A stretch of 64,000 nt of DNA, from NCBI RefSeq assembly GCF_001664485.1, contig NZ_CP013630.1:2111001-2175000 (forward strand). The letters are read 5' to 3'. Shown here piece by piece: positions 20,379 through 42,533 of the stretch (positions within the stretch are counted from its first letter, which is position 1; each line of letters begins with the position of its first letter). The stretch comes from Rhizobium sp. N324 (GTDB taxonomy: Bacteria > Pseudomonadota > Alphaproteobacteria > Rhizobiales > Rhizobiaceae). The notes under the pieces are model-generated. The model was not told where the DNA came from and ran no database searches. It saw only the letters and a program-made list of their open reading frames with translations. Made by a program: the position numbers and the translations under genes.

Positions 20379-20396
20379 GGGGCGGCTGCAGCACCG

Positions 20397-22114: not shown

Positions 22115-22280
22115 AAATCCCCTAAATTATGCGGAATTGACCCGAGTGCTCTAACGTCTTGCTTTGGCCTTTTCCAGCATCTGCCCGAAAAATATCGATT
22201 TCGATCTGAGCCCCCTTGGCAAGCCGGGGAACAATGGCTAAAAATCATGCAGTTCTATAGTGTGCCCGAAAGATAATCAT

Positions 22281-24427: not shown

Positions 24428-25875
24428 CAGCCACGATCCTCGTTGCAGATGATGATGCGGCCATCCGGACCGTGCTCAACCAGGCTTTGAGCCGCGCCGG
24501 CTACGATGTTCGCATCACCTCCAACGCCGCTACCCTCTGGCGCTGGATTTCGGCGGGCGAGGGCGATCTGGTCGTCACCGACGTGGTGATGCCCGACGAG
24601 AACGCTTTCGACCTCTTGCCGCGCATCAAGAAGGCGCGCCCTGACCTGCCGGTTCTCGTCATGAGCGCGCAGAACACCTTCATGACCGCCATCAAGGCCT
24701 CGGAGAAGGGCGCCTACGACTATCTGCCGAAGCCCTTCGACCTGACCGAGCTGATCGGCATCATCGGTCGCGCGCTCGCCGAGCCGAAGCGCAAGCCCGC
24801 CAAGCTCGAAGAGGACATGCAGGACGGCATGCCGCTCGTCGGCCGCTCGGCGGCGATGCAGGAAATCTATCGCGTGCTCGCCCGCCTGATGCAGACGGAC
24901 CTGACGCTGATGATCACTGGCGAATCCGGCACCGGCAAGGAACTTGTCGCCCGGGCGCTGCATGATTACGGCAAGCGCCGCAACGGCCCGTTCGTGGCGA
25001 TCAACATGGCGGCGATCCCGCGCGACCTGATCGAATCGGAACTCTTCGGCCATGAGAAGGGCGCCTTCACCGGGGCGCAGACCCGCTCGACCGGCCGCTT
25101 CGAGCAGGCCGAAGGCGGCACGCTTTTTCTCGATGAAATCGGCGACATGCCGATGGACGCCCAGACGCGGCTTCTGCGCGTGCTGCAGCAGGGCGAATAC
25201 ACCACCGTCGGCGGCCGCACGCCGATCCGCACCGACGTGCGCATCGTCGCCGCCACCAACAAGGATCTGAAGCAGGCGATCAATCAGGGCCTGTTCCGCG
25301 AAGACCTCTATTACCGCCTCAATGTCGTGCCGCTGCGCCTGCCGCCGCTGCGCGACCGCGCCGAGGATATTCCCGATCTTGTGCGCCATTTCATCCAGCA
25401 GGCCGAAAAGGAGGGCCTCGGCTCCAAGCGTTTCGATCAGGAAGCGCTGGAACTGATGAAGGCCTATGCCTGGCCGGGCAATGTGCGCGAGCTGGAAAAT
25501 CTCATCCGCCGGCTGATGGCGCTCTATCCGCAGGACGTGATCACCCGCGAGATCATCGACGCGGAACTGCGCTCCGACGTGCCCGATAGCCCGATCGACA
25601 AGGGGCCGATCCGCAGTGGCTCGATGACGATCGCGCAAGCCGTCGAGGAGAATATGCGCACCTATTTCTCCGGCTTCGGCGACAACCTGCCGCCGCCCGG
25701 CCTCTATGACCGCGTGCTGACGGAAATGGAATATCCGCTGATCCTTGCGGCACTCACGGCAACGCGCGGCAACCAGATCAAGGCGGCCGATCTTCTCGGC
25801 CTCAACCGCAACACCCTGCGCAAGAAAATCAGGGAACTCGGTGTCTCGGTCTATAGAAGCTCGCGCACGGCCTGA
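24424..25875 (+). CDS. ntrC: Nitrogen regulation response regulator NtrC
   Basis: Sigma-54 activator of nitrogen-scavenging genes. 483 residues: receiver domain with phospho-acceptor D53 in VTDVVMP, AAA+ domain with Walker A GESGTGKE and the sigma-54 contact loop GAFTGA, and a C-terminal Fis-type helix-turn-helix ([20 protein letters not shown]). In many Rhizobiales ntrY follows directly; here it lies about 14.4 kb downstream. Confidence 0.97.
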
Positions 25876-25899
25876 ATGAAAACTGGCTGAATAAAAAGA

Positions 25900-25930
25900 G
25901 GGCGGCGGGCCCTCATGTTGCCCACCGCCC
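25900..25930 (-). terminator. Stem-loop after ntrC with a U tract only on the minus strand
   Basis: Arms GGGCGGCGGG (25900-25909) and CCCACCGCCC (25921-25930) form a GC-rich hairpin. Plus-strand sequence after it has no T run, but the minus strand continues CTTTTTATT. It therefore looks like a terminator for a leftward transcript, though no leftward gene lies between here and 26415. Confidence 0.55.
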
Positions 25931-26270
25931 ACTTCCTCCCGGCGTCCGCCGCCACGGTCGGGAAGAGAATTGAATCTAGCCGAGCCGGGTCGCGGTTTAT
26001 ATCCGGGCGGACAAACAAAAGCGCAGTGTCATTCAACGGTCACATCGCGTTTGCGAGGTGCGGTTGGCCGCCGGGCGAATGTCATTGAAGTTGCTGCGGT
26101 CGTAGCCGCCGCGCCTGTGGATAGGCTGTGGATAACAGGTGGATGACAGGGGGCGGTCGGCGGCCAATAACGTCCCTGTTCCATTTGCATGTTGCCAATC
26201 CGTTCCGAATCTCGTCATCTGCCGTTGCTGCTGTCGACCTCCGCCGCAAACGTCGTCGATTGCATGCTAC

Positions 26271-26309
26271 GGGCGCTCCGGCCGATGTCGTTGAGCGCCC
26301 TTTTTCTTT
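26271..26309 (+). terminator. Strong orphan rho-independent terminator
   Basis: GGGCGCTC (26271-26278) pairs perfectly with GAGCGCCC (26293-26300), followed by TTTTTCTTT. It lies about 395 bp beyond ntrC and 106 bp before the next gene, so it ends either a long ntrC 3' UTR or an unannotated small RNA. Confidence 0.85.
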
Positions 26310-26417
26310 GAGGAAACTCCTCGCATATCGTCGCCCACGCCATAGGTTACGCGAGTCGGTCGTCGATCGATCGCACAATGCCGGCGACCGGCCGGCACAT
26401 TTTTCGGGAGCTGCATG

Positions 26418-27407
26418 ATGGAATATCGTCGTTTGGGAAAGTCGGGCCTGCAAGTGAGCGAGTTCTCCTTCGGCTCATGGGTGACATTCGGCAAGCAGGT
26501 CCATGGAGGCGACGCCGTCGACCTCATGAAGCTTGCCTATGACAATGGGGTGAATTTCTTCGACAATGCCGAAGGCTATGAAAGCGGCAAGTCCGAGATC
26601 GTCATGGGCGAGGCGTTGAAATCGCTCGGTTGGAGCCGCGACAGCTTCGTCGTCTCCAGCAAGGTCTTCTGGGGCGGCCAGAAGCCGACGCAGCGCGGCC
26701 TGTCGCGCAAGCATGTGACCGATGCCTGCCATGCGGCATTGAAGCGGCTTCAGGTCGATTACCTCGATCTCTATTTCTGCCACCGCCCGGATATCGACAC
26801 GCCGGTCGAGGAAACGGTCCGGGCGATGCACGATCTCGTTGCCCAGGGCAAGGTGCTCTATTGGGGGACGTCGGAATGGTCGGCGCAGCAACTGACGGAA
26901 GCCTATGCCGTGGCGCGCGATCTGCGCATCACGCCGCCGACGATGGAGCAGCCGCAGTACAATATCTTCGAACGCCAGAAGGTCGAATCCGATTATCTGC
27001 CGCTCTACGATCTCATCGGCCTCGGCACCACCATCTGGTCGCCGCTCGCTTCCGGCGTCCTGACCGGCAAATACAATAACGGGGTGCCGGCCGACAGCCG
27101 CATGAACCTGCCGGGCTACGAATGGCTGAAAGAGAAGTGGTCCAGCGACGCCGGCCGCGCCCAGCTCAAACAGGTTGGCGAACTCGCCAGGCTCGCCGAC
27201 GAGATCGGCCTGTCGATCACCCATCTCGCTCTGTTGTGGTGCCTCGCCAACCGCAACGTCTCCACCGTCATTCTCGGCGCCTCGCGCGCCAGCCAGTTGC
27301 AGGACAATCTCGCGGCGCTGTCCCACAGGCAGAAGATGACGCCTGAGGTACTGGACCGGATCGACGGGATCGTCGGAAACAAACCGGAAGGCCCGCGTCG
27401 ATTCTAG
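26418..27407 (+). CDS. Aldo/keto reductase, K+ channel beta-subunit type
   Basis: A 329-residue NADPH-dependent TIM-barrel reductase. MEYRRLGKSGLQVSEFSFGSW at the N-terminus, FFDNAEGYESGKSE with catalytic Tyr, DLYFCHRPDIDTPVEETVRAM, and the C-terminal cofactor site STVILGASRASQL place it in the Kv-beta-like AKR group. Substrate unknown. Two ATGs (26415, 26418) are possible starts. Stands alone between the orphan terminator and the leftward dsdA unit. Confidence 0.92.
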   Translation: MEYRRLGKSGLQVSEFSFGSWVTFGKQVHGGDAVDLMKLAYDNGVNFFDNAEGYESGKSEIVMGEALKSLGWSRDSFVVSSKVFWGGQKPTQRGLSRKHVTDACHAALKRLQVDYLDLYFCHRPDIDTPVEETVRAMHDLVAQGKVLYWGTSEWSAQQLTEAYAVARDLRITPPTMEQPQYNIFERQKVESDYLPLYDLIGLGTTIWSPLASGVLTGKYNNGVPADSRMNLPGYEWLKEKWSSDAGRAQLKQVGELARLADEIGLSITHLALLWCLANRNVSTVILGASRASQLQDNLAALSHRQKMTPEVLDRIDGIVGNKPEGPRRF

Positions 27408-27532
27408 AAGCTGTCGCGCGAGACTGTGCGCTGACGACCTGCATGAAAACAGAGACCTGAAGGCTGCGGCATCAGGTCGACAGGCGCGGATCGCTCCCGA
27501 CCCGCGCCTGTGGCACCATTCGGCATGCGGGA

Positions 27533-28855
27533 CTAAGTGAGGGCTTCGGCCTGATGGAGGAAGTTCTGGAACTGCTCCTCCGGGACGAACGAGCCGCCTG
27601 TTGTCCAGAGCACGTGCGTCGCCCGCGACATCTTCTCCTCGATGCCGTTCAGGGTTTGGAAACGCCGGCCCTCCTTATGGCGCAAGAGGAAGTCCGGGCC
27701 GAGCAGGGCGGCGGCCGCCGAAGGCTCCAGCTTCTGCCTTTGGGTAATCCACGCCATGCGAAGCAGCTTGAACAGATCGTCGTCGGCGGCCGTGTAGACG
27801 CCGGCGAGCATCTCGCGCATCACCTTGGCCACGAAGGCCGACATGCGGGCGACGGCCATGCCGTCGGCTTCGGTCTTGTTGGTCAGGCCGACGTCATAGA
27901 CCGACACCAGCTCCTGCGAACCCGACATCATGTGGACGAGGGCGCAGGGCGACTGAACCGGCTCGACGAAGAAGGCGTGCACATGGTCGCCGAAGATCGC
28001 CTTGGCGCCGAAGGCGACGCCGCCCGGTGCGCCGCCGATGCCGCAGGGCAGGTAGAGGAACAGCGGATTTTCGTCATCGATCGTGATCCCACGCTCGTCG
28101 AGTTGCGATGCCAGCTCCGACGCCGCTGCGCTGTAACCGAGGAACAGGTGCCGGGACTGTTCGTCGTCGACGAAATAGATCGTCGGATCGGCGTCGGCGA
28201 TGTCGCGGGCGTTTTCGACGGCTGTCGTGTAATCCGCCTCGTGCTGGATGACATCGACGCCGAGCTTCCGCAGGCGCTCGACCTTCCAGGCCTTGGCGTC
28301 GGACGACATGTGAACCGTGGCTTTGAAGCCGAGCGCACGCGCGGCGATGCCGACGCTCAAGCCGAGATTTCCGGTGCTGCCCACCGCCACGGTATAGCCG
28401 GAGAATAAGGAGCGGGCCTCTTCGGTTGCCAGCTTTCGGATATCCTCGCCGTCAGCGAGCAGTCCCTTCTGACGGGCGAGACTTTCGGCAAACAGGAAAA
28501 CCTCGTAGACGCCGCCGCGCGCCTTGATGGAGCCGGCAACCGGCAGGTGGCTGTCGGCCTTGATGAAGACGTTGCCGAACTCTCTCGTTCGATAGCCGAG
28601 CGCCTCGCGGAGTTCCTTGAGTTCGACCAGTTCGGAGCGGACCTCGCCGCCCGTATCCTTCAGTTCCGGAAAGCATTCGGCAAGAAGCGGCGCCAAGCGC
28701 TGCCAGTTCTGGCGCGCGCTCTGCACGTCGGCCGGTGAAACCGGCAGGTCCGAGGTATCGATCGCCTGTTTCCGGTAGGACGGATTGAGCCAGAGGGTCG
28801 GTCGGCCCGAGAGAACATCATCGCGAGCGGGATCACTGGGCAGTATCGTGTTCAT
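27533..28855 (-). CDS. dsdA: D-serine ammonia-lyase DsdA
   Basis: PLP enzyme of fold type II converting D-serine to pyruvate and ammonia. The protein aligns along its length with E. coli DsdA: DSHLPVAGSIKARGGVYEV with the PLP lysine, VGSTGNLGLSVGI, VHMSSDAKAWK, LFLYLPCGIGGAPGGVAFG and the C-terminal ATHVLWTTGGSFVPEEQF. About 440 residues. ATGs at 28855, 28861 and 28867 are possible starts; 28855 has a GGAA site at a suitable distance. It ends the leftward operon that begins with an amino acid ABC transporter, so it probably degrades the imported compound or a product derived from it. Confidence 0.94.
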   Translation of the reverse strand: MNTILPSDPARDDVLSGRPTLWLNPSYRKQAIDTSDLPVSPADVQSARQNWQRLAPLLAECFPELKDTGGEVRSELVELKELREALGYRTREFGNVFIKADSHLPVAGSIKARGGVYEVFLFAESLARQKGLLADGEDIRKLATEEARSLFSGYTVAVGSTGNLGLSVGIAARALGFKATVHMSSDAKAWKVERLRKLGVDVIQHEADYTTAVENARDIADADPTIYFVDDEQSRHLFLGYSAAASELASQLDERGITIDDENPLFLYLPCGIGGAPGGVAFGAKAIFGDHVHAFFVEPVQSPCALVHMMSGSQELVSVYDVGLTNKTEADGMAVARMSAFVAKVMREMLAGVYTAADDDLFKLLRMAWITQRQKLEPSAAAALLGPDFLLRHKEGRRFQTLNGIEEKMSRATHVLWTTGGSFVPEEQFQNFLHQAEALT

Positions 28856-28889
28856 GGACATTTCCATTCGTGAGCCGGGCTGCGGTTGG

Positions 28890-29648
28890 TCAGTGTCTTA
28901 GGACGCGGGCGAGGAAAGAGCGAGCCCGGTCGTTTTTCGGATTGTCGAAAAACTCGTCCGGCTTCCCGATCTCGATGATCGAGCCCTGGTCGATGTAGAC
29001 GACGCGGTCGGCGACCTCTCTTGCGAACCCCATTTCATGGGTCACCACCATCATCGTCATGCCCTCGGTGGCCAGTTCCCGCATGACGTCGAGGACTTCG
29101 CCGACCATTTCCGGATCAAGCGCGCTGGTGGGCTCGTCGAACAGCATCAGATGCGGTTCCATGGCGAGTGAGCGGGCGATGGCAACGCGCTGCTGCTGGC
29201 CGCCGGACAGCTGGCCCGGATATTTGTGCGCATGCGCCCTGAGGCCGACGCGGTCGAGGAGCTTCATGGCGGTCGCTTCGGCCTCTTCCCGCGACTTTTT
29301 GCGGACCCGCATCGGCGCGATGGTGATATTGTCCAGCACAGTTTTGTGCGGGAACAGGCCGAATTGCTGGAATACCATGCCGACGCCCTTGCGGATCGCC
29401 GCGAGTTCGCGTTCTCCGCCGAGCTTCCGGTCGGCCTCGACCGGCATGTCATAGCCGTCTACGACGAGGCTGCCGTTCTGGTACATTTCGAGGCCGTTGA
29501 CGCAGCGGATGAGGGTCGATTTTCCTGAGCCGCTGGCCCCGAGGATGACCATGACTTCGCCGCGAGTGACGGCGAGATCGATGTCCTTGAGCACATGGTG
29601 GGCACCGTAGAACTTGTTCATGCTTTTCATTTCGACGATGGCGTTCAT
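28890..29648 (-). CDS. Polar amino acid ABC transporter ATPase
   Basis: A 252-residue ATPase of the AapP/GlnQ group: Walker [11 protein letters not shown]-loop [11 protein letters not shown], signature [15 protein letters not shown], Walker [15 protein letters not shown]. The start MNAIVEM at 29648 is chosen on family alignment. Lies between the permease and dsdA genes in the leftward operon. Confidence 0.94.
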
Positions 29649-29673
29649 CGTGATGTCTCCGTGTTGGAACAGC

Positions 29674-30801
29674 TCAGCGGGCACTCGTTGCCATATGGTC
29701 TTCGAGCTTTCTGGCGGCATAGGTGATCATCGAGCCGACCAGGAAATAGGTGACGAGCAGGAACGAGAGGACTTCGAAAGTCCGGTCGCCATATTGCGGG
29801 TTCGCCAGGATCATCTGCCCCGCGCGGAGAAAATCCGTCAGCCCGATGATGAAGACGAGCGGCGCGGAGTTGAAGATGTCGAGCACGTTGCCGACCAGTG
29901 GCGCCACTACGACCCGGAGCGCCTGTGGCAGAACGATCGAGCGGTTGATGTCGAATTCGCTGATGCCGAGAGACCTTGCCGCCTCGGTCTGGGCGCGCGG
30001 AACCGCCTGAAGGCCGCTTCGGACATATTCGGCGACATAGGCGGAGTAGAAGATCGTGAAGCCGATCATGCCGCGCGCGACGTCGGCCAGTCCCCACTGC
30101 GGTGCAAGGACAGGCATGAGGATCCAGATCCAGTAGACGACGAGGATGAGCGGCACCGAGCGCATGACCTCGATGTACCAGGTGCAGATGATCCTGAGAC
30201 TTGAGAGCCGGCTCTGCCGTCCGAACGCGAGCAGGATGCCGATCGGCAGAGACAGGACCGACGTCACCAGCGTCAGCAGAACGCTGAGAAGAAGTCCGCC
30301 CCAGAGCCCCACGCCCGGAGGGGCCATGACCGCAACGACGACGATGAAGCCCGTAAACGCCGCAGCAGGCATCGCCTTCCTGGACAATGGCACATACGAC
30401 GTCAGCACCCATCCCAGCGAGGTTGCGGCAACGACGCCTGCCGCGGACATGGCGTTCTGCGGATCGCCATGATCGACGATCAAAATCAACAAGGGGACGA
30501 GAGCGAGAACCAGCCCATGGTGAGGCTTGAACGAAAACACGCAGCCGAGACCGGCGCCCAGGGTCGCTGCGATGATCGCCGACGCCGTCCATGCGCGCCA
30601 CGCCTGATCGGCTGGAAAAACGCCGATCATCAGCACCCGCAGGCTCTGCACGACAATATCCCACCTTGCCGTGGTGAGCGCCCAGTCAAGGATCGAATAG
30701 GCGAGCCAGAGCGCGCCTGGAATGACCAGCAGCGACAGGGCGATGTCGAAAGGCTTTCCGAACAGGTTGTGGCGGGTCCATTTTATTGAGGTGGCGATCA
30801 T
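29674..30801 (-). CDS. Amino acid ABC transporter permease, AapM-like
   Basis: A 375-residue membrane protein with several hydrophobic helices and the BPD-type cytoplasmic loop [24 protein letters not shown]. The long N-terminal extension before the permease core is typical of AapM/BztC general amino acid transporters. Overlaps its partner permease by ATGA. Confidence 0.92.
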
Positions 30802-32012
30802 TGCGACACTCCCATGGGGTTAAGACGGCGGTTCGCCCAGTACACAGACGAACTGATGATCCAGCTGAGGATCAGGTAGGACGCCATGACGATGATGATG
30901 CCTTCAAGGCTGTGGCCGGTCTGATTGGCGATCGTCCCGTAAATGTTGAACAGATCCGGATATCCGACCGCGATCCCGAGCGCGGTGTTCTTGGTCAGGC
31001 TGATATACTGATTGCCGAAGGAGGGGAGAACGACGCGGAACACTTGCGGAAGGATGATGTCGTTGACGGTGTCGCGGCGGCTGAGCCCCAGCGACCCCGC
31101 GGCCTCCCATTGGGCCTTCGGAAGAGCGTCGATCGCGCCGCGGACGGTTTCGGCGATGAAGGAAGCGCTGCTCACGACGACGGCAAGCAGAAGGGCTGCC
31201 ATCTCCGGGCTGATGCTGGTTCCGCCGCTCGCCTTGAACTTGTTGGCGACGGGGAAATTCACGGTCATCCCGCCGGTCGCGACCAGCAGCCCGAGGCAGA
31301 CGACCGCCGCGGCGACGCATATCCGCCGCGCTCCACGGACGGGGTCGAATATTGCGCCGAGCGCCGACACTCCTGTGGCGGTGACCAGGATCAGCGAAAG
31401 GGTGGATGCGCCGCCGGTCCAGGACAGCGTGGGGACGTATATGCCTTGCTGGCTGACGATAAGGCCGCCGTAGAGCTTTGCTGCAGACGCCATTGGCGGA
31501 AAGCGCAGCACGACCGCGAAGTACCAGAAGACGAGCTGTATGAGCAGCGGCGTGTTGCGGACGAACTCCACGATCCAGAAGCAGAGGTTTCGCACCACCC
31601 AGTTGGTGGAGAGACGGCCGACGCCGAGCATCGTTCCGAGGATCGTGCTGAGGATGATTGCCAGCAGTGCGATTTTCGCGGTGTTGAAGATGCCTGTGAC
31701 GAAAGCCGATGCGACCGACATCTCCGAAGAGAACTGGGCGAGGCTGGGGACGAAGCCTTCACCTGATGTCAGCGTCCATCCTTCGCTGATATCGAAGCCG
31801 GCGGTGTTGGCAAGAAACGAGAAGCTGAACCGTATGCCCTTCTCGGCAAGGCCAGCCTTGACCGCATATGCCAGCATCCCGAGCAGCACGACGACCAGAA
31901 CGACGATTCCGAGCTGGATCGCTTCGTGCCGGATGCGATTGCGCAGGCGCCGCGACCTCAGTCTGTCACCCTCTGCCATGCCGCGGATCGCACTCGTTTC
32001 ATGGATTGTCAT
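30798..32012 (-). CDS. Amino acid ABC transporter permease, AapQ-like
   Basis: A 404-residue permease with the EAA loop EAAGSLGLSRRDTVNDIILPQ and an internal insert between early helices, as in AapQ/BztB. Forms a heterodimeric channel with the AapM-like protein. Downstream of the binding-protein gene by about 57 bp. Confidence 0.92.
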   Translation of the reverse strand: MTIHETSAIRGMAEGDRLRSRRLRNRIRHEAIQLGIVVLVVVLLGMLAYAVKAGLAEKGIRFSFSFLANTAGFDISEGWTLTSGEGFVPSLAQFSSEMSVASAFVTGIFNTAKIALLAIILSTILGTMLGVGRLSTNWVVRNLCFWIVEFVRNTPLLIQLVFWYFAVVLRFPPMASAAKLYGGLIVSQQGIYVPTLSWTGGASTLSLILVTATGVSALGAIFDPVRGARRICVAAAVVCLGLLVATGGMTVNFPVANKFKASGGTSISPEMAALLLAVVVSSASFIAETVRGAIDALPKAQWEAAGSLGLSRRDTVNDIILPQVFRVVLPSFGNQYISLTKNTALGIAVGYPDLFNIYGTIANQTGHSLEGIIIVMASYLILSWIISSSVYWANRRLNPMGVSQ

Positions 32013-32069
32013 GTTCAGGCTCCAAGTGCTTGGGGGTCGAAACGTTGTGGTCCCGACCCCCGGCCGGCA

Positions 32070-33103
32070 TCAGTTCCAGAGCGGCGAGTAGATTGCGCCA
32101 CCCTGCGTCCACAAGGCGTTCGGTGTGCCCTTGCGGTCGAGATACATCTTGGTCTTCGGACCGAGGTTACGATCGTAGGCCTCGCCGTAGTTGCCGACGG
32201 CCTTGATCGCCTGAGCAATGAAGTCGTCGGAGAGGCCGAAGTCCTTGCCGTAGCCGCCGCCATTGCTGCCGAGGAACTTCTGAACGAAGGGATCTTCGCT
32301 CTTCAGCTTTTCGGCCAGATTGGCCTGGGTGATCTCGGACTCTTCGGCCTGGAAGAGGCCGTATTCGATCCAGCGCAGCGCGTTGCGCCACTTGGAGTCG
32401 TTGGCAGCCACGAAGCCGCCGAACGGGGACTTGTCCAGCGTATCCGGGAGGATCAGATAGTCGGCTGGCTTCGGTGCATTCCCCGCCCAGGCGGCAAGGG
32501 CTGATTTGTCGGTGCTCATCGCATTGCAACGACCCGAGTTGAGAGCGGAGAAAAGCTTCTCGAGGTTTCATAGGTCAGGACCTTGGAGTCCTTCCAACCG
32601 CGCGCCTTGAAGGCAGCAGCCAGAACCGTCTCGGTGGCCGATCCCTGGGTGGTGCAGATCGTTGCACCATCGAGGTCTGCGAATTCCTTGATCCCGGCAT
32701 CGGTTTTCACCATGAGGCCGGTACCGTCGTAGAAGTTGATCGGCAGGAAATCGATCGCGATTGACGATTCGCGCGCCGGTTTGATCGTGGTGTGGGCGAA
32801 GACGACATCGACCTGGCCGGTAAGGACTGCGTCAAAGCGGCTCTTGTCGGTCACCGTGATGAACTTGACCTTGGAGGCGTCGCCGAGAACGCCGGCGGCA
32901 ACCGCTTTGCAGAAGTCGACGTCGAGCCCTTCCATCTGTCCGGTCGTGGTATTGAGATAGCCGAAGCCGGGAGCGGTGTTGTCGGTGCCGCAGTTGAGCA
33001 CACCGCGCTGCTTGACTGTGTCGAGAACGGAGGCGGAAGCATTGGCCGCCGTGAACGCAACGCCTGCGAAAACGCCGGCAGTCAGGATTTTGAGTAGTTT
33101 CAT
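32070..33103 (-). pseudogene. Frameshifted periplasmic amino acid-binding protein, AapJ-like
   Basis: Two frames together encode one complete binding protein. The first (33103 down to 32516) has a signal peptide (MKLLKILTAGVFAGVAFTAANASA) and the SBP_bac_3 N-lobe to YET, then runs off into a spurious tail. The second (ending 32070) continues the C-lobe. Restoring one A in the run at 32566-32568 (minus strand GAAA to GAAAA) gives YENLEKLFSALNSGRCNAM then STDKSAL, exactly the AapJ pattern. So either a one-base deletion inactivated the gene or the base is a sequencing error. First gene of the leftward transporter-dsdA operon; an AAGGGG site precedes the ATG. Confidence 0.9.
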
Positions 33104-33409
33104 CGAAGTTCCCCTTTCGGATCGCATAGTGACGGTGACGCCAAATCAATGAGCGATGGCTCGATCGAAAGTCCGGTAAGACGCTGGAGGCGTTATCGCC
33201 TTTCTGACTGCGTCGTTCCCACTATTGGCCAAGGTCTGCGTGCGATCCTCGCTCCCAGTCCCATCAATTGGCAGATGGAGAGTAGGAGTGGGGTCTCTTC
33301 AAATCTACTTAATTCTCCTGAGGTGATACATTAGGAAATCTGTTGTTTTGTTGCCTCGACGCCGCATTGAGGTGGTCGGCATGGTGCGCGGTCGCGCTGA
33401 CACCCAGCG
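33104..33409. other. Transporter operon promoter region
   Basis: No credible gene. It must carry the promoter of the leftward transporter-dsdA operon on its left side. The portion near 33290-33350 is AT-rich relative to surroundings. I see no clear terminator for the lysR gene that ends at 33410. Confidence 0.5.
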
Positions 33410-34306
33410 TCAAGACAGCGGCGGCTTCTCGGCCATTCGGTCAAGGAACACCTGAAGGGCTGGACTGCGCTTTTCCTCTTTGCGGAAGGCGATAAATATC
33501 CTCCGACGGATTTCCGGAACGAGCCTGCAGACCCAGACGTCTTCGAGATCGTAGCTGGCGCGCAGGCCAGGCAGGATCGAGATGCCGTAATTCTGCCGGA
33601 TCAGCGCAATGGTCACTTCGAAGCCTTTGCACCTCGCCACGATGTTGGGCTTGAAGCCCTCTTCCTGACAGGCCTCCACCAGCATCCTCGTATAGGTGTC
33701 GGACGCGGTGTCGATCGCCCACCGGTCCTCCCGAAGCTCATCCAGGCCGACGGTTAGCCGCTCCGACAGCCTGTGATCTTTGGAGACCATGACGTTGAAC
33801 ACGTCCTCCATCAGGAAGATCGTCTCGATATTGGGATCGAGCGCGCCGGTCGGTATATTCAAGTCATCGATAATCGCGACATCCGTCTGCCAGCTTCGCA
33901 GCGCGGCAAGGCTTTCGCCCGGCTCCATTTCTTCGAACTGGACGGTGAGGTGAGGGTGCCGTTCGGCAAGATCGTAGACGACCTTCGGAATGACGGCGGC
34001 CGCCACGGAAGGAAACGCCGCCACCCGAAGTTCGCCGGAAACGACGCTTTTCAATTCGGCGATGTCTGCTTTCGCCGATTCGATTTCGATGAGGATCTTC
34101 TCTGCCCGCAGCACCAGCTGCTGGCCGGCGGGCGTCATGACAACGCCCCGGCCGCGTCGCTCGACGAGCCGTATGCCCACCTCTTCTTCAAGAAGCGCAA
34201 TTTGCTGCGACACGGCCGACGGCGAGACGTGTAAGGCTTCTGCCACCGCCGCCATGGTCTTGCGGATCGACAGTTCGCGCAGTGCCCGCAGACGTCCGAC
34301 ATCCAT
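33410..34306 (-). CDS. LysR-type transcriptional regulator
   Basis: A 298-residue LTTR: N-terminal winged helix (LRALRELSIRKTMAAVAEALHVSPSAVSQQIALLEEEVGIRLVER) and a periplasmic-binding-fold effector domain from about residue 90. Set between the transporter-dsdA unit (same strand) and the divergent glyA2-folD-purU unit, so it is the likely regulator of both. Effector presumably the amino acid substrate; not known. Confidence 0.93.
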   Translation of the reverse strand: MDVGRLRALRELSIRKTMAAVAEALHVSPSAVSQQIALLEEEVGIRLVERRGRGVVMTPAGQQLVLRAEKILIEIESAKADIAELKSVVSGELRVAAFPSVAAAVIPKVVYDLAERHPHLTVQFEEMEPGESLAALRSWQTDVAIIDDLNIPTGALDPNIETIFLMEDVFNVMVSKDHRLSERLTVGLDELREDRWAIDTASDTYTRMLVEACQEEGFKPNIVARCKGFEVTIALIRQNYGISILPGLRASYDLEDVWVCRLVPEIRRRIFIAFRKEEKRSPALQVFLDRMAEKPPLS

Positions 34307-34432
34307 AACGACCTCCTCGCGGCTCCGAAATCATTAGCATATCTGAACGTATAAGCAAATATTATTAACTTTTTCTGGTGTTTCGATCGATCTAGGTTCC
34401 GCCTCACGAATTCGAGGAATTGGAGAACTCAG
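34307..34432. promoter_or_regulatory. Divergent lysR / glyA2 promoter region
   Basis: The 126-bp gap between divergent starts contains an AT-rich core (about 34330-34380) with an imperfect inverted repeat (GCATAT ... TATAAGC) and T-N11-A type spacing, as expected for a LysR regulator site. The glyA2 ribosome site is GGAATTGGAGAAC. The exact operator cannot be fixed by eye. Confidence 0.5.
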
Positions 34433-35710
34433 ATGACCAACGCTGCAAGGGTGCATTTTAACACCACCGTCCAGGAGGCCGATCCACTCGTCGCCGATGC
34501 CCTTGCGTCCGAGCGGGCCCGCCAGCAGAACCAGATTGAGCTCATCGCTTCGGAGAATATCGTCAGCCGTGCGGTTCTCGACGCCTTGGGGCACGAGATC
34601 ACCAACAAGACACTCGAAGGCTATCCGGGCAATCGTTTTCACGGTGGCGGACAGTTCGTCGACATTGCCGAGCAGGCCGCGATCGACCGCGCCAAGCAGC
34701 TGTTCAATTGCGGCTACGCCAACGTCCAGCCGCACTCGGGGACCCAGGCCAACCTGGCCGTCTTCTTCCTGCTCCTGAAGCCAGGCGAAAAGGTGCTGTC
34801 GCTCGACCTTGCAGCCGGCGGACACCTGTCGCACGGCATGAAGGCGAACCTGTCGGGCCGCTGGTTCGACGCCAACAATTACAGCGTCAACCCGCAGAAC
34901 GAGGTCATCGACCTTGATGAGATGGAACGCATCGCCGAAGAAATCCGCCCGAAGCTGCTGATCACCGGTGGTTCGGCATATCCACGCGAACTCGACTTCG
35001 AGCGCATGTCCAAGATCGCAAAGAAGGTCGGCGCCCACTTCCTGGTGGATATGGCCCACATCGCCGGCCTCGTTGCCGGTGGCGTCCATCCTTCGCCATT
35101 CCCGCATGCCGACATCGTGACCTGCACCACGACCAAGACCCTGCGCGGTCCGCGTGGCGGCCTGATCCTCACGAACAACGAGGAATGGTACAAGAAGCTG
35201 CAAGCGGCTGTGTTTCCCGGCGTCCAGGGATCGCTGCACAGCAACGTCCTGGCCGCCAAGGCGATCTGCCTGGGTGAAGCCCTCCGCGACGACTTCAAGC
35301 TCTATGCCCGCCAGGTCGTTGCCAACGCAAAAGTCCTCGCCGAAACGCTGGCGGATCGTGGCGTTCGCATCGTTTCCGGCGGCACCGATACCCACATCAT
35401 CCTGCTCGATCTGTCGAGCAAGGGACTGCTTGGAAAACAGGCTGAGACGCTGCTCGCCAAAGCGAACATCACATCCAACAAGAACCCGATCCCCGGCGAC
35501 AGCCCTCGTCCTCCGGAGTGGGTCGGCATGCGCCTTGGCTCCTCCGCTGCGACGACACGTGGCTTGCAGGAGGAGGAATTCCGGGTTCTCGGCCATGTCA
35601 TCGCGGATCTCATCGACGCCGAGACAGAGGGCAGGACCGACGAGATCGTCGGAACTGCCAGGGCGAAGATCGCGGAACTGACCGAGAAGTTCCCGGTCTA
35701 CGGCCACTAA
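34433..35710 (+). CDS. SHMT-family enzyme, candidate alpha-methylserine hydroxymethyltransferase
   Basis: A 425-residue fold-type I PLP enzyme clearly homologous to Gly[35 protein letters not shown] (D206) and PLP lysine K235 in [12 protein letters not shown]. Several active-site residues differ from ordinary SHMT. The Tyr of NKYAEGYPG is Thr60 here (NKTLEGYPG), the YY of KRYYGG is FH (residues 69-70), the His before the PLP lysine is Thr, and the first His of AHGGHLTHG is Ala. Thr in place of that Tyr is a known feature of alpha-methylserine hydroxymethyltransferase (EC 2.1.2.7), which transfers a hydroxymethyl group between THF and a D-amino acid. Clustered with FolD, PurU and, divergently, D-serine ammonia-lyase. 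A plain glyA paralogue is the alternative. Confidence 0.9.
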
Positions 35711-35799
35711 GGCAACGTACCCAGGAAGCGGAAATGCCCCGCCCACATCTCCGGGCGCGGCATTTTGCTGGTTCGAGCTTGGATGCAATGGAGCACCCC

Positions 35800-36696
35800 A
35801 TGGGAATGGACAGATTCACACGCGCCGCAAACATCGATGGCAAAGAGTACGCAGCAGGGCTCCTGCAGCGCATCAAGGCCGATGTCGAAACGCTGCAGGC
35901 AACGACTGGAGCCGTTCCCGGTCTGGCCGTCGTTCTGGTGGGGCACGACCCGGCAAGCGCAATTTATGTGGCCTCAAAGCACCGTCAGATGGTTGCCGCC
36001 GGAATGAAGTCCTTCGAATACCGGCTTGCTCAGGAAACCACCCAGGGCGAACTTCTTGACCTCGTGCATCACCTTAACGACGATGCAGAAGTGCATGGAA
36101 TTCTTGTGCAGTTGCCGCTGCCGGCGCATTTGGATCCGAATGCCGTGATCCAGGCCATCAATCCCGACAAGGATGTCGACGGCTTCCATGTGTCGAATGC
36201 GGGCCGCCTTGCCACCGGCAACCCAGCTTTGATTCCCTGCACCCCGCTCGGCTGCATGATGCTCATCAAGGATACGCTCGGCGAGAGCCTCTCCGGCCTT
36301 CATGCCGTCATCGTCGGCAAGTCCAACATCGTTGGAAAACCGATGGCGCAGATGCTGATGAATGCCCACTGCACCGTCACGGTCGTTCACTCGCAGACAA
36401 GGAACGCGGCAGAACTTTGCCGGGCGGCCGACATTCTTGTCGTTGCGGCCGGTCGGGCGGGCCTCGTTCGGGGTGACTGGATCAAACCCGGCGCCGTCGT
36501 GATCGACGTCGGCATCAACCGGATCCAGGACGGCGAAAAATCGCGGATCGTCGGTGACGTGGCGTATGGCGAAGCCGGCCACGCGCGCGCCATCACGCCG
36601 GTGCCGGGCGGCGTCGGCCCGATGACGATCGCATGCCTGCTGTCCAACACGCTCACCGCATTCCGCCGCCATCACGCGATGATCACCGCGGCCTGA
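35800..36696 (+). CDS. folD: FolD, methylene-THF dehydrogenase/cyclohydrolase
   Basis: Bifunctional enzyme oxidising 5,10-methylene-THF to methenyl-THF and hydrolysing it to 10-formyl-THF. 298 residues with catalytic Tyr and Lys in [27 protein letters not shown], the Rossmann motif [13 protein letters not shown] and the C-terminal [12 protein letters not shown]. The ATG at 35800 has a GGAG site; the frame is open far upstream. Set between the SHMT-like gene and purU, it would oxidise the C1 unit released by the former. Confidence 0.94.
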
Positions 36697-36718
36697 GACG
36701 ACGAACAAGGAGATAGAC

Positions 36719-37615
36719 ATGACCATCACGGCCCCTCGCTACGCTCTGCGTGTCGCATGCCCGTCGATCCGCGGCGTGACGGCCGCCATCGCCGGCTATC
36801 TCTCCCAGAACGGCTGCAACATCTCCGACAGCGCGCAATTCGACGACGCCGATACCGGGCGCTATTTCATGCGGATCAGCTTCCAGCCGCATGACGGACA
36901 TACGCTTGACCAGCTTCGTCAGGGTTTCGAACCGATCGCCGAGAGGTTCGAGGCAAGCGCCGAATTTTTCGATGAGAGCGAAAAGAAGAAGGTGATTCTC
37001 ATGGTGAGCCGCTTCGGCCACTGCCTGAATGATCTCCTCTACCGCTGGCGCATCGGGGCGCTGCCGATCGACATCGTCGGCGTGATCTCCAACCACACGG
37101 ATTACCAGCGGGTCGTCGTGAACCACGACATCCCGTTCCACTGCATCAAGGTGATTTGGGAAAACAAGCCGGAGGCCGAGGCGAAGCAGATGCAGATTGT
37201 CGAGGATTCGGGCGCTGAACTCATCGTGCTGGCCCGCTACATGCAGGTCCTGTCCGACGACATGTGCCGCAAGATGTCCGGCAGGATCATCAACATCCAC
37301 CACTCCTTCCTGCCGAGTTTCAAGGGCGCCAATCCGTATAAGCAGGCATTCGAACGGGGCGTGAAGCTCATCGGCGCGACGTCGCACTACGTCACCGCAG
37401 ACCTCGACGAAGGCCCGATCATCGAGCAGGACATCGTCCGCGTCACCCATGCGCAGAGCGGCGAGGACTATGTCAGCCTCGGCCGCGACGTCGAAAGCCA
37501 GGTGCTCGCCCGGGCCATCCACGCCCACATCCATGGCCGGGTGTTCATCAACGGCAACAAGACCGTCGTCTTCCCGGCGTCACCCGGCTCCTACGCGTCG
37601 GAACGCATGGGCTGA
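36719..37615 (+). CDS. purU: Formyltetrahydrofolate deformylase PurU
   Basis: Hydrolyses 10-formyl-THF to formate and THF. 298 residues: N-terminal ACT domain (residues 8-85) and a C-terminal formyltransferase-fold domain with the catalytic Asn-His-Asp set (INIHHSFLPSFKG and DLDEGPIIEQD). Starts 22 bp after folD with an AAGGAG site. In this operon it would regenerate free THF and vent C1 units as formate, which marks the operon as catabolic. Confidence 0.95.
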   Translation: MTITAPRYALRVACPSIRGVTAAIAGYLSQNGCNISDSAQFDDADTGRYFMRISFQPHDGHTLDQLRQGFEPIAERFEASAEFFDESEKKKVILMVSRFGHCLNDLLYRWRIGALPIDIVGVISNHTDYQRVVVNHDIPFHCIKVIWENKPEAEAKQMQIVEDSGAELIVLARYMQVLSDDMCRKMSGRIINIHHSFLPSFKGANPYKQAFERGVKLIGATSHYVTADLDEGPIIEQDIVRVTHAQSGEDYVSLGRDVESQVLARAIHAHIHGRVFINGNKTVVFPASPGSYASERMG

Positions 37616-38047
37616 TTGCCATGCTTACGCCTCCGACTTGGCTCCAAGGGCGTGATCGAGCAGCGTCCCATATGGCGCCATTCAGTCGCCTCCCGGCCAT
37701 TCAGGTGACCGACGAAATGGATGTTTGGGACCGCCGCTGATTGGAGCGCAGGGAGAGGTTTTGTTTCCGCGGCAACCTCGCTCAGGACCTTTGCGTCAAC
37801 CGGACCGTCCGCGATCTGCGCCCCCCGCATCGGGGGGCGAATCAGATGAGGTTTGAGGCAATCTCGCGTCACAGACCTTAAGCAGCGACTGAACGATGCC
37901 CATGGTCCAAGGCAATCTTCACCATGACGCAAAGTGACGCACATATTGCACCACCATGATTGGAAAATCAGGGTCATGCGAAATTGTTCGTGCTGTGGCT
38001 GAAAGGCATCATCCGGCACGCTGTGCCTTTGTGAATGAGCCAGGCTG
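37616..38047. other. Gap after purU with GC-rich hairpin
   Basis: 432 bp with no gene I can support. A perfect 8-bp hairpin (CGCCCCCC 37819-37826, GGGGGGCG 37832-37839) lacks a T tract but may end the purU transcript. A minus-strand frame across 37591-38166 is open but resembles nothing known and is probably not coding. Confidence 0.5.
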
Positions 38048-38572
38048 ATGATCCGCATTCTGAAAAAACTCCTGAATAACCGCTCTGGAGCTTCGGCTAT
38101 TGAGTCTTGCTTCGTCGCGCCCCTGATAATCTTCGTCTTCATCGGCAGCGTCGCGATTGTTGACATGTTCCGTACCTATCAGAACATCGTCGGCGCGAAT
38201 GGCGTGGTGGGCGACGTTATCTCGCGACAAACGTCTATCGACGCGACGTTCGTTACCAATATCTATGGGGTATTCCTGCATCTGCAGCAGCATAGGACCA
38301 CGCCGAGCGCGCTTCGAATTTCGAGCATCAGGAATACCGGCGGGATCTACAAGCTCGATTGGCAGAAGGAGAGTGGCGCCACCAGTCTTCTGAAAGCGCA
38401 GGTTCTCGACAGCACGACGCTGCCCGAGATCACCGATGGCGACTCGATCATCTATGTGCAAGGTGCCGCGACCTATACGGTGCTATCCAATATCCTCGGC
38501 TTCGGACAAATGACCTTCGTCCAGCGGACCTTTACGAGGTCGCGCTTCATCAGCGCGGTCGTGTTCAACTGA
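38048..38572 (+). CDS. TadE-like pilus/surface-assembly protein
   Basis: A 174-residue protein with a short basic N-terminus, the TadE-like segment NRSGASAIESCFVAPLIIFVFIGSVAIVDMFR (residues 10-42), where Glu follows the small residues as in pseudopilin-like TadE/TadG, and a soluble C-terminal part. No other tad/flp genes are near, so it is an orphan. Lower GC than the flanking nitrogen genes. Confidence 0.78.
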   Translation: MIRILKKLLNNRSGASAIESCFVAPLIIFVFIGSVAIVDMFRTYQNIVGANGVVGDVISRQTSIDATFVTNIYGVFLHLQQHRTTPSALRISSIRNTGGIYKLDWQKESGATSLLKAQVLDSTTLPEITDGDSIIYVQGAATYTVLSNILGFGQMTFVQRTFTRSRFISAVVFN

Positions 38573-38671
38573 GGCGCAGTGAATTTTCGGCTCGTCATGA
38601 TGAGAGTGAACGAGGAGTGGTCGAGGGCGGCAGTTTTATTCTGGCCCGGCCTAATTTAGCGAAGTCATTCG

Positions 38672-39664
38672 ATGTCACAAAGTGATGCCTCCGAGTTTTG
38701 TCCGCGCTTTCAAGGTTCGGATTTCGATGAAATGGTCGATACCTTTAAACGGCATTTCGGCCCGTTTGAGGCATCTCCAGACTGCTCTACGCGAACCTTC
38801 AATTGGAAAGCCGATTACTGGAGCAGAGGCCCAATGAGCTTGATCAGCGGGCAATACCATTGCAGTTGGCAGGTGCGCGCGGAGCCGGAAACAGCTGAAT
38901 GGCTATCCATCCTTCTGCCCCGCGAGGGCGCCCTGGATATATCGCTAGGCCGGGATACAATCGAAGGAACGCCCGGCAAATTGCTCCTGGTCAACAATCG
39001 TGAGGTCGAGCGCTGTCAAGTGCGGGGAGCCCCGCATAAGTCGGATATATTGCGTTTGGATTGGGCAATCATTACACAAGCGGTTGCCGGACTCGTCGAC
39101 ATTTCCCCGTCTGGTAGACTCGGACTATCATCCATAATTGACCTTTCAAATACTGAGGGATGGCTTATTGGCAGTCTGGCGCAAACGATCGTGAGAGGCA
39201 TGCGGCACAATGGGCCATTGCTTCGCTCGCCCATCGCCATGTCGAATTTGAGCCACGCACTGGCCGATCTGGTGGTGCAATCGGTTCCCCATCGGTTGTC
39301 ACACCTCATTGGCAGGAAATCTTTCTATATTGCGCCTTGGCATGTTCGTGACGCCATCAACTTCATGCACGTCAACATTGCTCGTCCCATCACCATAACG
39401 ATGGTGGCGGAAGCCGTCGGAATTTCCACTCGCTCACTCGAAGTCGGCTTCCGCTCCTTCAGGGAAACAACACCTTCCGCCTTTCTGCGCAAGATTCGCC
39501 TTCGCGCGGCGCGCGAAGATCTTCTCGACGCTTCAAATCCGGAATCGGTGAAAGACATATGCCTGAAATGGGGCTTCTTTCACCTGGGTCGCTTCTCCGC
39601 CGCCTATCGCGAAGCCTACGGGGAAAAGCCGTCGGATACGAAACGACGACAGGCAAGAACCTAA
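38672..39664 (+). CDS. AraC-family transcriptional regulator
   Basis: A 330-residue protein with an N-terminal sensing domain (AraC-binding-like, residues 20-200) and a C-terminal double helix-turn-helix (INFMHVNIARPITITMVAEAVGIS to WGFFHLGRFSAAYREAYGEKPS). Coding DNA is less GC-rich and its codon use looks unlike that of its neighbours, suggesting acquisition. Target genes unknown; the adjacent TadE-like gene is possible. Confidence 0.88.
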   Translation: MSQSDASEFCPRFQGSDFDEMVDTFKRHFGPFEASPDCSTRTFNWKADYWSRGPMSLISGQYHCSWQVRAEPETAEWLSILLPREGALDISLGRDTIEGTPGKLLLVNNREVERCQVRGAPHKSDILRLDWAIITQAVAGLVDISPSGRLGLSSIIDLSNTEGWLIGSLAQTIVRGMRHNGPLLRSPIAMSNLSHALADLVVQSVPHRLSHLIGRKSFYIAPWHVRDAINFMHVNIARPITITMVAEAVGISTRSLEVGFRSFRETTPSAFLRKIRLRAAREDLLDASNPESVKDICLKWGFFHLGRFSAAYREAYGEKPSDTKRRQART

Positions 39665-40262
39665 TCAAATCCACCAACTATCCAATTTCCAAAGTACTGT
39701 CCGTACTCCGCATCCTTCGCCACACTGAGGTAGCTAAGGTTAGGCTCCGTTAAGCTCTACAATTGACTAATAGTGGCCAGCAAGCGCTCGCCAACAGTGT
39801 GTCGGTCGGCCGCTCAGCAACTCGATCAGAGACGGCCTCATAACTGGCCTCGCGTAGGGTTTTTGCAGCTTCGCAAAGCCCTGTGAGACTTCCTCTATCC
39901 CTCGTCGATTATGCCGCATGCTGCATGGCCCATCCACCTCGATGATGGAGCCGTTACCACAGTCGCGCTCCGCGATGACGACCGGCGGCTGAATGACGGT
40001 GGTGAGCGGACGCCCGCAAGGCGAGTGACATGACAATGTGCCTGGGCAACACGCCATTGTGTCGGTTCGAGCCCTTGGCGCGGCTTGACAATGTGGCGGG
40101 GTGCGTTGCATTTTCGCCACAATGCGTTGCTTAAAGGTCACGCAAGGGTTTTGGACATTTCGCTCCCGATCGAGTCGTTCCGGACGCTGGCTTTCTTAAG
40201 CCGGCGTTGTTTGGTTTCGATCGGCTGGCGAGGGCGGTGGGTGCCGTCTGAAGAGAGGCCGA
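39665..40262. other. Gap upstream of ntrY
   Basis: 598 bp with no supportable gene; a minus-strand open frame at 39767-40141 has no recognisable features. Near its right end an inverted repeat TGTGGCG (40092-40098) / CGCCACA (40115-40121) follows a TTGACA sequence at 40085-40090, a plausible ntrY promoter with an operator-like palindrome. Confidence 0.5.
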
Positions 40263-42533
40263 ATGACGCAGGATGGGGTATCGCCGGCGGCGGCGGGCGA
40301 GGCGGTGACCACGGTGACCGATCGCCGCGCCCTTTTCGCCGTGCCCGGCCTGGTGCTTGCCGGCGGCGCGCTCCTCTGCGCCACGGCCACACTTTTCGTG
40401 CTGCTTGGTCTCACCCCGATCGCGCCGAGTTCGCATGTCGTCATCACGTCGGTCATCGTCAACTCCTTCTTCGTCCTGACGCTGCTGGCGCTGATCGCCC
40501 GCGAGGTGGCAAGGCTGCTCAAGGCGCGCACCCGGGGCAGGGCGGCGGCACGCCTGCATATCCGCATCGTCGTGCTCTTCTCGATCGTCGCGATCACGCC
40601 GGCGATTCTCGTCGCCATCTTTGCCAGCATCACGCTGAATGCCGGTCTCGACCGCTGGTTTGCGCTGCGCACCCAGTCAATCGTCAGTTCGTCGCGCAAT
40701 ATCGGCCAGGCCTATATGATGGAAAACGCCAGCTACCTGCAGGGGCAGACGGTTTCCATGGCCAATGACCTGGAGCGCAACCGTGCACTCTATAGCCTCG
40801 ACCGGACAGGCTTTGCCGACCTGATGACCCGCCAGGCGAGGGGCCGCGGCCTGCTCGGTTCCTTTCTCGTCGAGCGCGACGGCTCGGTGATCGTTCAGGC
40901 CGACATCGCCACCGAAAAGCCGTTGCCGGCCATTCCGCAGGACGCGCTGGAGAAGGCCGCTGCCGGCCAGCCGACGCTGATTCCGCCTGGTGTTACCAAC
41001 CTCGTTGGCGCCATCATCAAGCTCGATGCCATCCAGGGCACCTTCCTTTATACGGTGCGCGCCGTCGATCCCAAGGTCATGGGCGCCATGCGCATGATGG
41101 AGGAGAACGCCACGGAATACCGGTCGATGGAAGCCAACCGCTTCTCGCTGCAGGTCGCCTTCGCCGTGCTCTATATCGGCTTCGCGCTGATCGTGCTGCT
41201 CGCGGCGATCTGGACCGCGATCGCCGTTGCCGACCGCATCGTCCGGCCGATCCGGCTGTTGATCACCGCTGCCGACAGCGTCGCATCGGGCAATATGGAT
41301 ATCGTCGTGCCGGTGCACGCCGTCGATGGCGACGTCGCCAATCTGTCGCGCACCTTCAACAAGATGATCTCGGAAATCCGCACCCAGCGCGACGAGATCC
41401 TCGAGGCCAAGGACGAAGTCGACGACCGCCGCCGCTTCATCGAGGCGGTGCTGTCGGGTGTGACCGCCGCCGTCATCGGCGTCGAGCACGACCGCCGTAT
41501 CGCCATCGTCAACAGTTCGGCCGAGACGCTGATGTCGCTGTCGGCCGACGAGATGCTCGGCAAGCAGCTGGCCGACATCGCACCCGAGGTCGATCAGGTA
41601 TTGACCGAGGCGGCGTCGCGTCATCGCGGCGATTTCCGCAAGCAGATCGCGCTGGTGCGCGGCGGCACGGTGCGTACACTGAGCGTTCAGGTCACCCGCG
41701 AGGAAGTGCGCGACATGAGCGAATCCTATGTGATCACACTCGACGACATCACCGATCTCGTCATCGCCCAGCGCTCCACCGCCTGGGGCGACGTGGCAAG
41801 GCGCATCGCTCATGAGATCAAGAACCCGCTGACGCCGATCCAGTTGTCCGCCGAGCGCATCCAGCGCCGTTACGGCAAGCAGATCGACCCGGACGACCGA
41901 ACCGTCTTCGATCAGTGCACCGATACGATCATCCGCCAGGTCGGCGATATCGGCCGCATGGTCGACGAATTCTCCGCCTTTGCCCGCATGCCGAAGCCGA
42001 CCAAGGAGCCGAGTGACCTGCGCGATATCCTGCGCGACGCGATCTTCCTGCGCGAGATGGGCAACAACCACGTCACCTTCGGGCAGGATTTCGGCGATCA
42101 GCCGCTGGAGGGCCTGTTCGACAGCCGCATGCTCGGCCAGGCTTTCGGAAATCTGATCAAGAATGCCGTTGAGGCGATCGAGGCGGTGCCGAGCGACGAA
42201 CGGGACGAACGCAAGATTCTGGTGCGCGCCGCCTTCGATGCCGGCCGCGACCGCTTCACCGTCGATGTGATCGACAACGGCCGCGGCCTGCCGGTGGAGA
42301 ACCGCCACAGCATTCTGGAACCCTATATGACGATGCGCGAGAAGGGCACCGGCCTCGGCCTCGCCATCGTCAAGAAGATCATCGAGGAACATGGCGGGCA
42401 GCTCGAACTGCATGATGCGCCCGCCGATTTTGACCGGGGAAGAGGGGCCATGATCCGCGTGCATCTGCCACGCCGGGATCCGACGCCCGCCTCTCCCGCA
42501 GCCAATGACAAGGAAAGCGTTTATGGCCTCTGA
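40263..42533 (+). CDS. ntrY: Membrane sensor kinase NtrY
   Basis: A 756-residue membrane histidine kinase. Two hydrophobic helix pairs near the N-terminus bracket a periplasmic sensor region (about residues 120-290), followed by HAMP (DRIVRPIRLLITAADSVASGN), PAS, histidine box [23 protein letters not shown], and HATPase boxes NLIKNAVEAI, DNGRGLP and GTGLGLAI. NtrY with NtrX controls nitrate/nitrogen and redox responses and interacts with NtrBC. Overlaps ntrX by 11 bp. Confidence 0.96.
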   Translation: MTQDGVSPAAAGEAVTTVTDRRALFAVPGLVLAGGALLCATATLFVLLGLTPIAPSSHVVITSVIVNSFFVLTLLALIAREVARLLKARTRGRAAARLHIRIVVLFSIVAITPAILVAIFASITLNAGLDRWFALRTQSIVSSSRNIGQAYMMENASYLQGQTVSMANDLERNRALYSLDRTGFADLMTRQARGRGLLGSFLVERDGSVIVQADIATEKPLPAIPQDALEKAAAGQPTLIPPGVTNLVGAIIKLDAIQGTFLYTVRAVDPKVMGAMRMMEENATEYRSMEANRFSLQVAFAVLYIGFALIVLLAAIWTAIAVADRIVRPIRLLITAADSVASGNMDIVVPVHAVDGDVANLSRTFNKMISEIRTQRDEILEAKDEVDDRRRFIEAVLSGVTAAVIGVEHDRRIAIVNSSAETLMSLSADEMLGKQLADIAPEVDQVLTEAASRHRGDFRKQIALVRGGTVRTLSVQVTREEVRDMSESYVITLDDITDLVIAQRSTAWGDVARRIAHEIKNPLTPIQLSAERIQRRYGKQIDPDDRTVFDQCTDTIIRQVGDIGRMVDEFSAFARMPKPTKEPSDLRDILRDAIFLREMGNNHVTFGQDFGDQPLEGLFDSRMLGQAFGNLIKNAVEAIEAVPSDERDERKILVRAAFDAGRDRFTVDVIDNGRGLPVENRHSILEPYMTMREKGTGLGLAIVKKIIEEHGGQLELHDAPADFDRGRGAMIRVHLPRRDPTPASPAANDKESVYGL

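Follow-up and report, generated by a model that had tools for sequence, protein, structure and literature searches.

A rhizobial gene cluster around an alpha-methylserine-type hydroxymethyltransferase, probably a catabolic cassette for 2-hydroxymethylserine

The stretch of DNA analysed here (the window, 64,000 nucleotides, C1:2111001-2175000 of the 6.97 Mb, six-contig genome of Rhizobium sp. N324) contains a cluster of divergent genes arranged around a lysR gene, which very probably form a unit for breaking down an alpha-substituted serine. We read it, with a probability of roughly 0.78, as a cassette whose main substrate is 2-hydroxymethylserine (2-HMS) and which perhaps also handles related alpha-substituted serines; the cassette has probably spread horizontally. 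From left to right, the minus strand carries dsdA, the genes for the ATPase and two permeases of an ATP-binding cassette (ABC) importer, the binding-protein gene and lysR; the plus strand, after lysR, carries a gene for an enzyme resembling serine hydroxymethyltransferase (SHMT), then folD and purU. An earlier note on this DNA had correctly listed and placed dsdA, an ABC transporter, lysR, the SHMT-like gene, folD and purU, all of which are present. In window coordinates the features are:

27533-28867, minus strand: dsdA, D-serine ammonia-lyase (TIGR02035 equivalog, 524 bits against a cut-off of 368; NF002823, 608 bits against a cut-off of 246)
About 28890-29648, minus strand: ABC transporter ATPase, polar amino acid type (PF00005); the start is taken from the annotated relative L006, and the open frame extends to 29720
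29674-30801, minus strand: large polar-amino-acid ABC permease (TIGR01726 above cut-off)
30798-32012, minus strand: large polar-amino-acid ABC permease (profile matches)
32070-32519, minus strand: second part of the substrate-binding protein, in a different frame (matches the single-frame protein of genus relatives)
32516-33127, minus strand: first part of the family-3 substrate-binding protein (PF00497; frame broken by comparison with relatives)
33304-33315, minus strand: conserved sequence 5' of the binding-protein gene, a candidate regulator site
33410-34306, minus strand: LysR-type regulator, GltC-like (best model GltC, with a score under its cut-off)
34358-34377, plus strand: highly conserved stretch in the gap from which lysR and the SHMT-like gene diverge, a candidate LysR site
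34433-35710, plus strand: predicted alpha-methylserine-type hydroxymethyltransferase (mSHMT), with Thr60 and His70, above the cut-off of the broad SHMT model, and with a kept motif whose lysine we take to be the pyridoxal phosphate lysine
About 35800-36696, plus strand: folD, methylene-tetrahydrofolate (methylene-THF) dehydrogenase/methenyl-THF cyclohydrolase (NF010785, 443 bits against a cut-off of 396); start taken from the FolD of Shinella zoogloeoides Teo12; one other copy in the genome, 57% identical
36719-37615, plus strand: purU, formyl-THF deformylase (TIGR00655, 326 bits against a cut-off of 286); the genome has two more copies, 72% identical

All ten gene pieces are under purifying selection, with ratios of nonsynonymous to synonymous substitution rates (dN/dS) of 0.015-0.151 against two relatives, most synonymous rates against the second relative being near or above 1.

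In the proposed route, a dedicated ABC importer would take up 2-HMS, and the mSHMT, with its Thr60/His70 pocket, would pass one hydroxymethyl group to tetrahydrofolate (THF) and leave D-serine. DsdA would turn the D-serine into pyruvate and ammonia, while FolD and PurU would convert methylene-THF to formate plus free THF, keeping the first step supplied with its acceptor. The central GltC-like LysR probably controls one or both of the divergent units. This chemistry of import, cleavage, deamination and one-carbon release had been put forward in the earlier note. It fits the active-site residues, the co-occurrence of the genes, their shared insertion and the consumption of 2-HMS by a homologous cluster; the parts that do not stand are an intact importer, whose binding protein is apparently broken in this strain, and the claim of novelty.

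That claim, worded as knowing of no described operon of this kind, fails because Holert et al. 2024 (PMC10848231) describe a cluster mSHMT-dsdA-folD-purU-dsdX. According to passages of that paper, tris(hydroxymethyl)aminomethane (TRIS) is oxidised to 2-HMS by a cluster I; the Pseudomonas cluster II, which has the gene content just given, consumes 2-HMS and releases ammonium when placed in E. coli; and P. putida that has received a plasmid carrying both clusters grows on 2-HMS. The same passages propose the reactions given above, citing Wilson and Snell 1962 for the formation of D-serine from 2-HMS, place the cluster II context also in Pseudomonas strains that have no cluster I, and call the operon-like association of mSHMT with dsdA and dsdX previously unreported. 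The pathway idea is therefore already published; descriptions earlier than Holert et al. 2024 were not found in open-licence PubMed Central, and papers elsewhere may exist. With cluster II of Pseudomonas hunanensis Teo1 and S. zoogloeoides Teo12 the window cluster shares mSHMT (63% identical to Teo1 and 84% to Teo12), DsdA (65 and 69%), FolD (68 and 74%), PurU (74 and 85%) and the GltC-like LysR (67% to the regulator of the Teo1 TRIS clusters and 77% to that of Teo12). It differs in having an ABC importer in the place of DsdX (neither Teo1 DsdX nor a Klebsiella GntP protein has a match in window 22001-42000), in its site beside ntrC in a rhizobium, and in coming from a genome with no close TaoA. 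For the rhizobial cluster, the natural substrate, the direction of the mSHMT reaction, the specificity of the importer and the part played by the regulator are inferences.

The earlier note had drawn attention to non-canonical active-site residues in the SHMT-like enzyme, and the comparison bears this out: Thr60 and His70 replace the Tyr/Tyr pair of the genome's other SHMT (L001, 53% identical; loci are numbered L and genomes G throughout). Compared with canonical SHMT (GlyA), the protein keeps the family score and the lysine motif, but the two tyrosines have become Thr and His. These are the residues given for alpha-methylserine hydroxymethyltransferases in passages of PMC6411801, where the numbering coincides with that of the window protein; the likeness to the enzyme EC 2.1.2.7 (Nozaki et al., as cited) is one of these two residues. 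PbzB of the benzobactin clusters (PDB 7QWZ), which makes 2-HMS, has the same Thr/His pair in its pocket in place of Tyr55/Tyr65 of GlyA, and its double change to Tyr leaves no detectable activity (passages of PMC10098953). The same source has PbzB serving biosynthesis alongside a peptide synthetase; its motif reads TAEG--RYH, that of the window enzyme TLEG--RFH. Among 80 loci from genome contigs, 28 have Thr/His and 52 Tyr/Tyr at positions 60/70. Outside these 80, the enzyme of L014, on a plasmid, carries Ser/His there. In a 48-protein tree, which contained no sequence known as a biochemically characterised alpha-methylserine hydroxymethyltransferase, a branch with support 100/100 separates the 11 canonical rows from the other 37, the window protein included. 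Several relatives at 81-96% identity, among the UniRef matches listed, are named 2-methylserine hydroxymethyltransferase, and the nearest named relatives by this protein are in R. sp. R634 (99%) and R. phaseoli (97%). Judged from these sequence characters, the SHMT-like enzyme is assigned to the alpha-methylserine type.

A search of genomes for the same gene neighbourhood, which the earlier note had called for, recovers it consistently among close relatives. Sixteen Thr/His loci reach 80% identity; among them dsdA is matched in 14, folD and purU in 15 each, LysR in all 16 and the permease in 14, and where at least 9 kb is available on both sides all five partner genes occur in 12/12 (in one of these, L028, the dsdA match spans only 297 of 444 residues). 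The two loci with dsdA unmatched, L021 and L023, are ones whose available DNA ends 1.2-2.1 kb upstream of the mSHMT gene. At the thresholds used, none of the 52 Tyr/Tyr loci (24 with full flanks) matches any of the five genes, and neither does any of the 12 Thr/His loci at 63-71% identity (two with full flanks). Gene order varies while the set stays constant: dsdA lies beyond the ABC genes in the window and in L006, after purU in L010-L012, and in Paracoccus (L005) on the far side, along with folD and purU, and mSHMT-dsdA-folD-purU form a single row in Teo1, in Klebsiella L013 and in rhizobial L117. The importer also changes, from the ABC type of the window to a GntP/DsdX type (L004, L013) or, in L117, a different ABC transporter whose binding protein and permeases are 35-41% identical to those of the window (G077, 3265-13149, with mSHMT, dsdA, folD, purU and the ABC genes on one strand and lysR divergent). 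Such constancy of the core enzymes, combined with importers that can be swapped, would be expected of one single pathway.

The earlier note had left the substrate as either 2-HMS or 2-methylserine. We favour the former because the cluster has a D-serine lyase and nothing in it matches the D-amino-acid dehydrogenase of Teo12. Were 2-methylserine the main substrate, the mSHMT would yield D-alanine, to be processed by enzymes encoded elsewhere, and DsdA would be a side activity. A D-amino-acid dehydrogenase gene does follow purU, complete in L003 (Teo12) and L027 (Sinorhizobium medicae), where it adjoins dsdA, and partial in L021, but it is matched in just 2/16 close loci, whereas dsdA is in 12/12 of those with full flanks, and D-alanine is not known to serve D-serine ammonia-lyases as a useful substrate; we regard this substrate as unlikely. 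It is less likely again that two unrelated units merely adjoin, one an importer and lyase for free D-serine, the other an ordinary SHMT-FolD-PurU route from L-serine to glycine and formate. DsdA acts on D-serine, FolD and PurU accept methylene-THF whatever its source, and a polar-amino-acid importer could carry D-serine, all of which such an arrangement would use; Thr60/His70 are, however, unlike an ordinary SHMT, and both halves are found together in all 12 complete close loci, in several orders, and as a single row in L117 and Teo1.

Two further readings have hardly any probability left to them. The lower half of a TRIS pathway is homologous to what the window holds, so TRIS degradation proper might be considered, but nothing in the genome comes closer to Teo1 TaoA than 43-44% identity, at places away from the cluster, while the choline-dehydrogenase-like gene adjoining Teo12 cluster II (taken as its TaoA) reaches 62% identity to Teo1 TaoA over 368 residues; this reading was set aside on TaoA, the one searched for among TaoA, TaoB and TupA. 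The enzyme might also make 2-HMS for a peptide, as PbzB with the same Thr/His pair does. Its neighbours are catabolic (lyase, deformylase, importer), and within 24.5-41 kb, the stretch searched, no listed open frame exceeds 790 aa, so that this stretch holds no peptide synthetase; the biosynthetic reading was set aside on its catabolic gene context. A catabolic cassette for 2-HMS is the reading that we retain.

The importer itself calls for a qualification. Its ATPase, two permeases and binding protein are present, as the earlier note had it, but the note did not remark that the binding-protein gene is split, being open in two different frames. The corresponding stretches share one frame in all 11 same-genus relatives fetched; the second part is 93-99% identical to the single-frame protein in ten of them and 41% identical in the eleventh (L117, with its other ABC transporter), and the named relatives L003, L006, L010, L011 and L012 have a single annotated binding-protein gene of 1,032 bases. 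Because both pieces remain conserved (dN/dS 0.026-0.056 against two relatives), the break would be recent or an assembly error. As sequenced, this strain lacks a complete ABC importer with intact binding protein, two permeases and ATPase. The layout resembles AapJQMP, which we take to be the general L-amino-acid permease of rhizobia, in its two large permeases, ATPase and family-3 binding protein, and by size and order we label the permease at 29674-30801 Aap-M-like and that at 30798-32012 Aap-Q-like. The best other match to the latter in the same genome is 37% identical, so the window importer is a transporter separate from AapJQMP.

Several findings weigh against a 2-HMS cassette as described. 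With its binding-protein gene split, the importer of this strain may be inactive. The mSHMT gene occurs in just 12/148 genomes of the genus, this one included (another of the carriers, G077, has it at 66% identity). L023, at 83% identity, has no folD or purU downstream on a complete flank, and a Ruegeria plasmid locus (L009, 75%) has a LysR gene but none of the other partner genes, such as dsdA, folD and purU, nearby; together with the 12 loci at 63-71%, L009 indicates that the Thr/His enzyme serves other contexts too. In the tree, the rows with an adjoining dsdA form two clades, one of 16 ABC-type rows and one of four (Teo1, Klebsiella L013, Mesorhizobium L014 and rhizobial L117), and rows that have no dsdA branch between them. 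The gene set would then have been either assembled twice or lost several times; a computed count of one change for dsdA on this tree omits the rows belonging to no group. Finally, control of both units through one common LysR site is unsupported. Each divergent promoter has its own conserved block (33304-33315 and 34358-34377). A weight matrix of the conserved block between lysR and the SHMT-like gene was run over the 300 bases that precede the binding-protein gene, using 32 distinct sequences and, as the null, 60 shuffles of two-base pieces for each. The score was matched or beaten by 13/60 shuffles in the window, and by no more than 1/60 in only five of the 32 sequences (L008, L016, L017, L018 and L028).

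The surroundings of the block bear on its spread in the genus. It is bordered on the left by ntrC (TIGR01818 above cut-off) and an aldo-keto reductase gene (PF00248), and on the right by a sensor-kinase gene, presumably ntrY by its position, and then an NtrC/NtrX-like gene. For a survey of the insertion site we kept 30 sensor-kinase loci, the most similar among 60 genomes searched, with 1.5 kb of upstream flank. Upstream of the kinase there is an aldo-keto reductase gene in 12, ntrC in 11, purU in four and none of these in three, namely the window genome and G017 (where the cluster is 2.6 and 5 kb away) and G066. The block is not at the site in 23/30 loci, so it probably moves as a unit; in G010, G077 and G085 the cluster is elsewhere in the genome. 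As a separate observation, the ntrC-sensor-kinase interval (window 25876-40262) looks like a favoured insertion place, holding in congeners nothing, an aldo-keto reductase, or the reductase and the cluster. Between purU and the sensor kinase, at 38048-39664, 2.6 kb of additional DNA in the window encodes a small protein outside any Pfam family, and a regulator of the AraC family; the same spacing is about 260-270 bases in L107, L108 and L110 and about 360 in L109, and L111 also has an AraC gene.

The Thr/His loci at 63-71% identity (L030, L032-L042) are hydroxymethyltransferase genes of marine and other Proteobacteria, with no match to dsdA, folD or purU in the DNA examined. Neighbours were checked in Pfam for nine of these 12 loci (20 proteins, leaving out L032, L037 and L040), and no common pathway was seen among them. 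The place divergently upstream was scanned in six of the nine loci, and a LysR-family gene stands there in five (L030, L033, L034, L035 and L039), none of these five proteins being 50% or more identical to the window LysR; in L036 the frame in that place matches no Pfam family. Neighbours in L038 include a DAO-GcvT and an MttB protein, and in L041 and L042 a Rieske oxygenase. A different variant is found at L014, on a plasmid of Mesorhizobium sp. WSM4875 (8985-21266), where the enzyme has Ser at position 60 and lies with dsdA and purU but no folD match, and also with an Ldh-type oxidoreductase, an iron-type alcohol dehydrogenase, an aldehyde dehydrogenase and a D-amino-acid-dehydrogenase-like protein, followed by a related ABC importer. 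This variant may offer a second entry to the route, starting from an amino alcohol.

TRIS cluster II of Teo12 appears, from the order of its parts, to be derived from the ABC form and split by a Tn3-family element. On Teo12 plasmid p2 (L003, 4209-10681) an ABC importer remnant and a Tn3-family element stand beside cluster II: a recombinase and a Tn3-family transposase separate the cluster from the genes for the binding protein and one permease, the second permease is reduced to a fragment, and no ATPase match was found in 25 kb of Teo12 DNA. Positions 4263-6872 and 10682-15185 of L003 match 3081-5690 and 5684-10189 of Shinella L012, where they are contiguous with a 7-base overlap, and six other loci (L010, L011, L020, L024, L025 and L026) match L003 likewise across the insert. 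Passages of PMC10848231 mention flanking transposases and not an ABC remnant.

What is new here, then, is the ABC-importer form of the cluster in a genome that has no close TaoA, the signs of where Teo12 cluster II came from, and a possible natural source of the substrate. 2-HMS is a rare peptide building block, contained in benzobactins and antrimycin, and the benzobactin cluster is abundant in Pseudomonas (passages of PMC10098953). Such compounds are a possible natural source of 2-HMS, which rhizobia might meet and use. Tentatively, the ABC-type cluster may be a natural, pre-TRIS pathway of root-associated Alphaproteobacteria for scavenging 2-HMS from the peptide products of neighbours (benzobactins, antrimycin), and the direct donor of the TRIS lower half in Shinella and Rhizobium, although we would sooner expect this wider picture to need revision than to hold in full. 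The cluster would place in a natural context a catabolic module hitherto known from the degradation of a synthetic buffer. It would also offer a source, open to testing, for the TRIS pathway, which according to passages of PMC10848231 its discoverers believe to have been assembled within decades. The cluster further supplies an importer candidate for 2-HMS, and suggests a link between the producers of 2-HMS-containing peptides and their possible consumers in soil.

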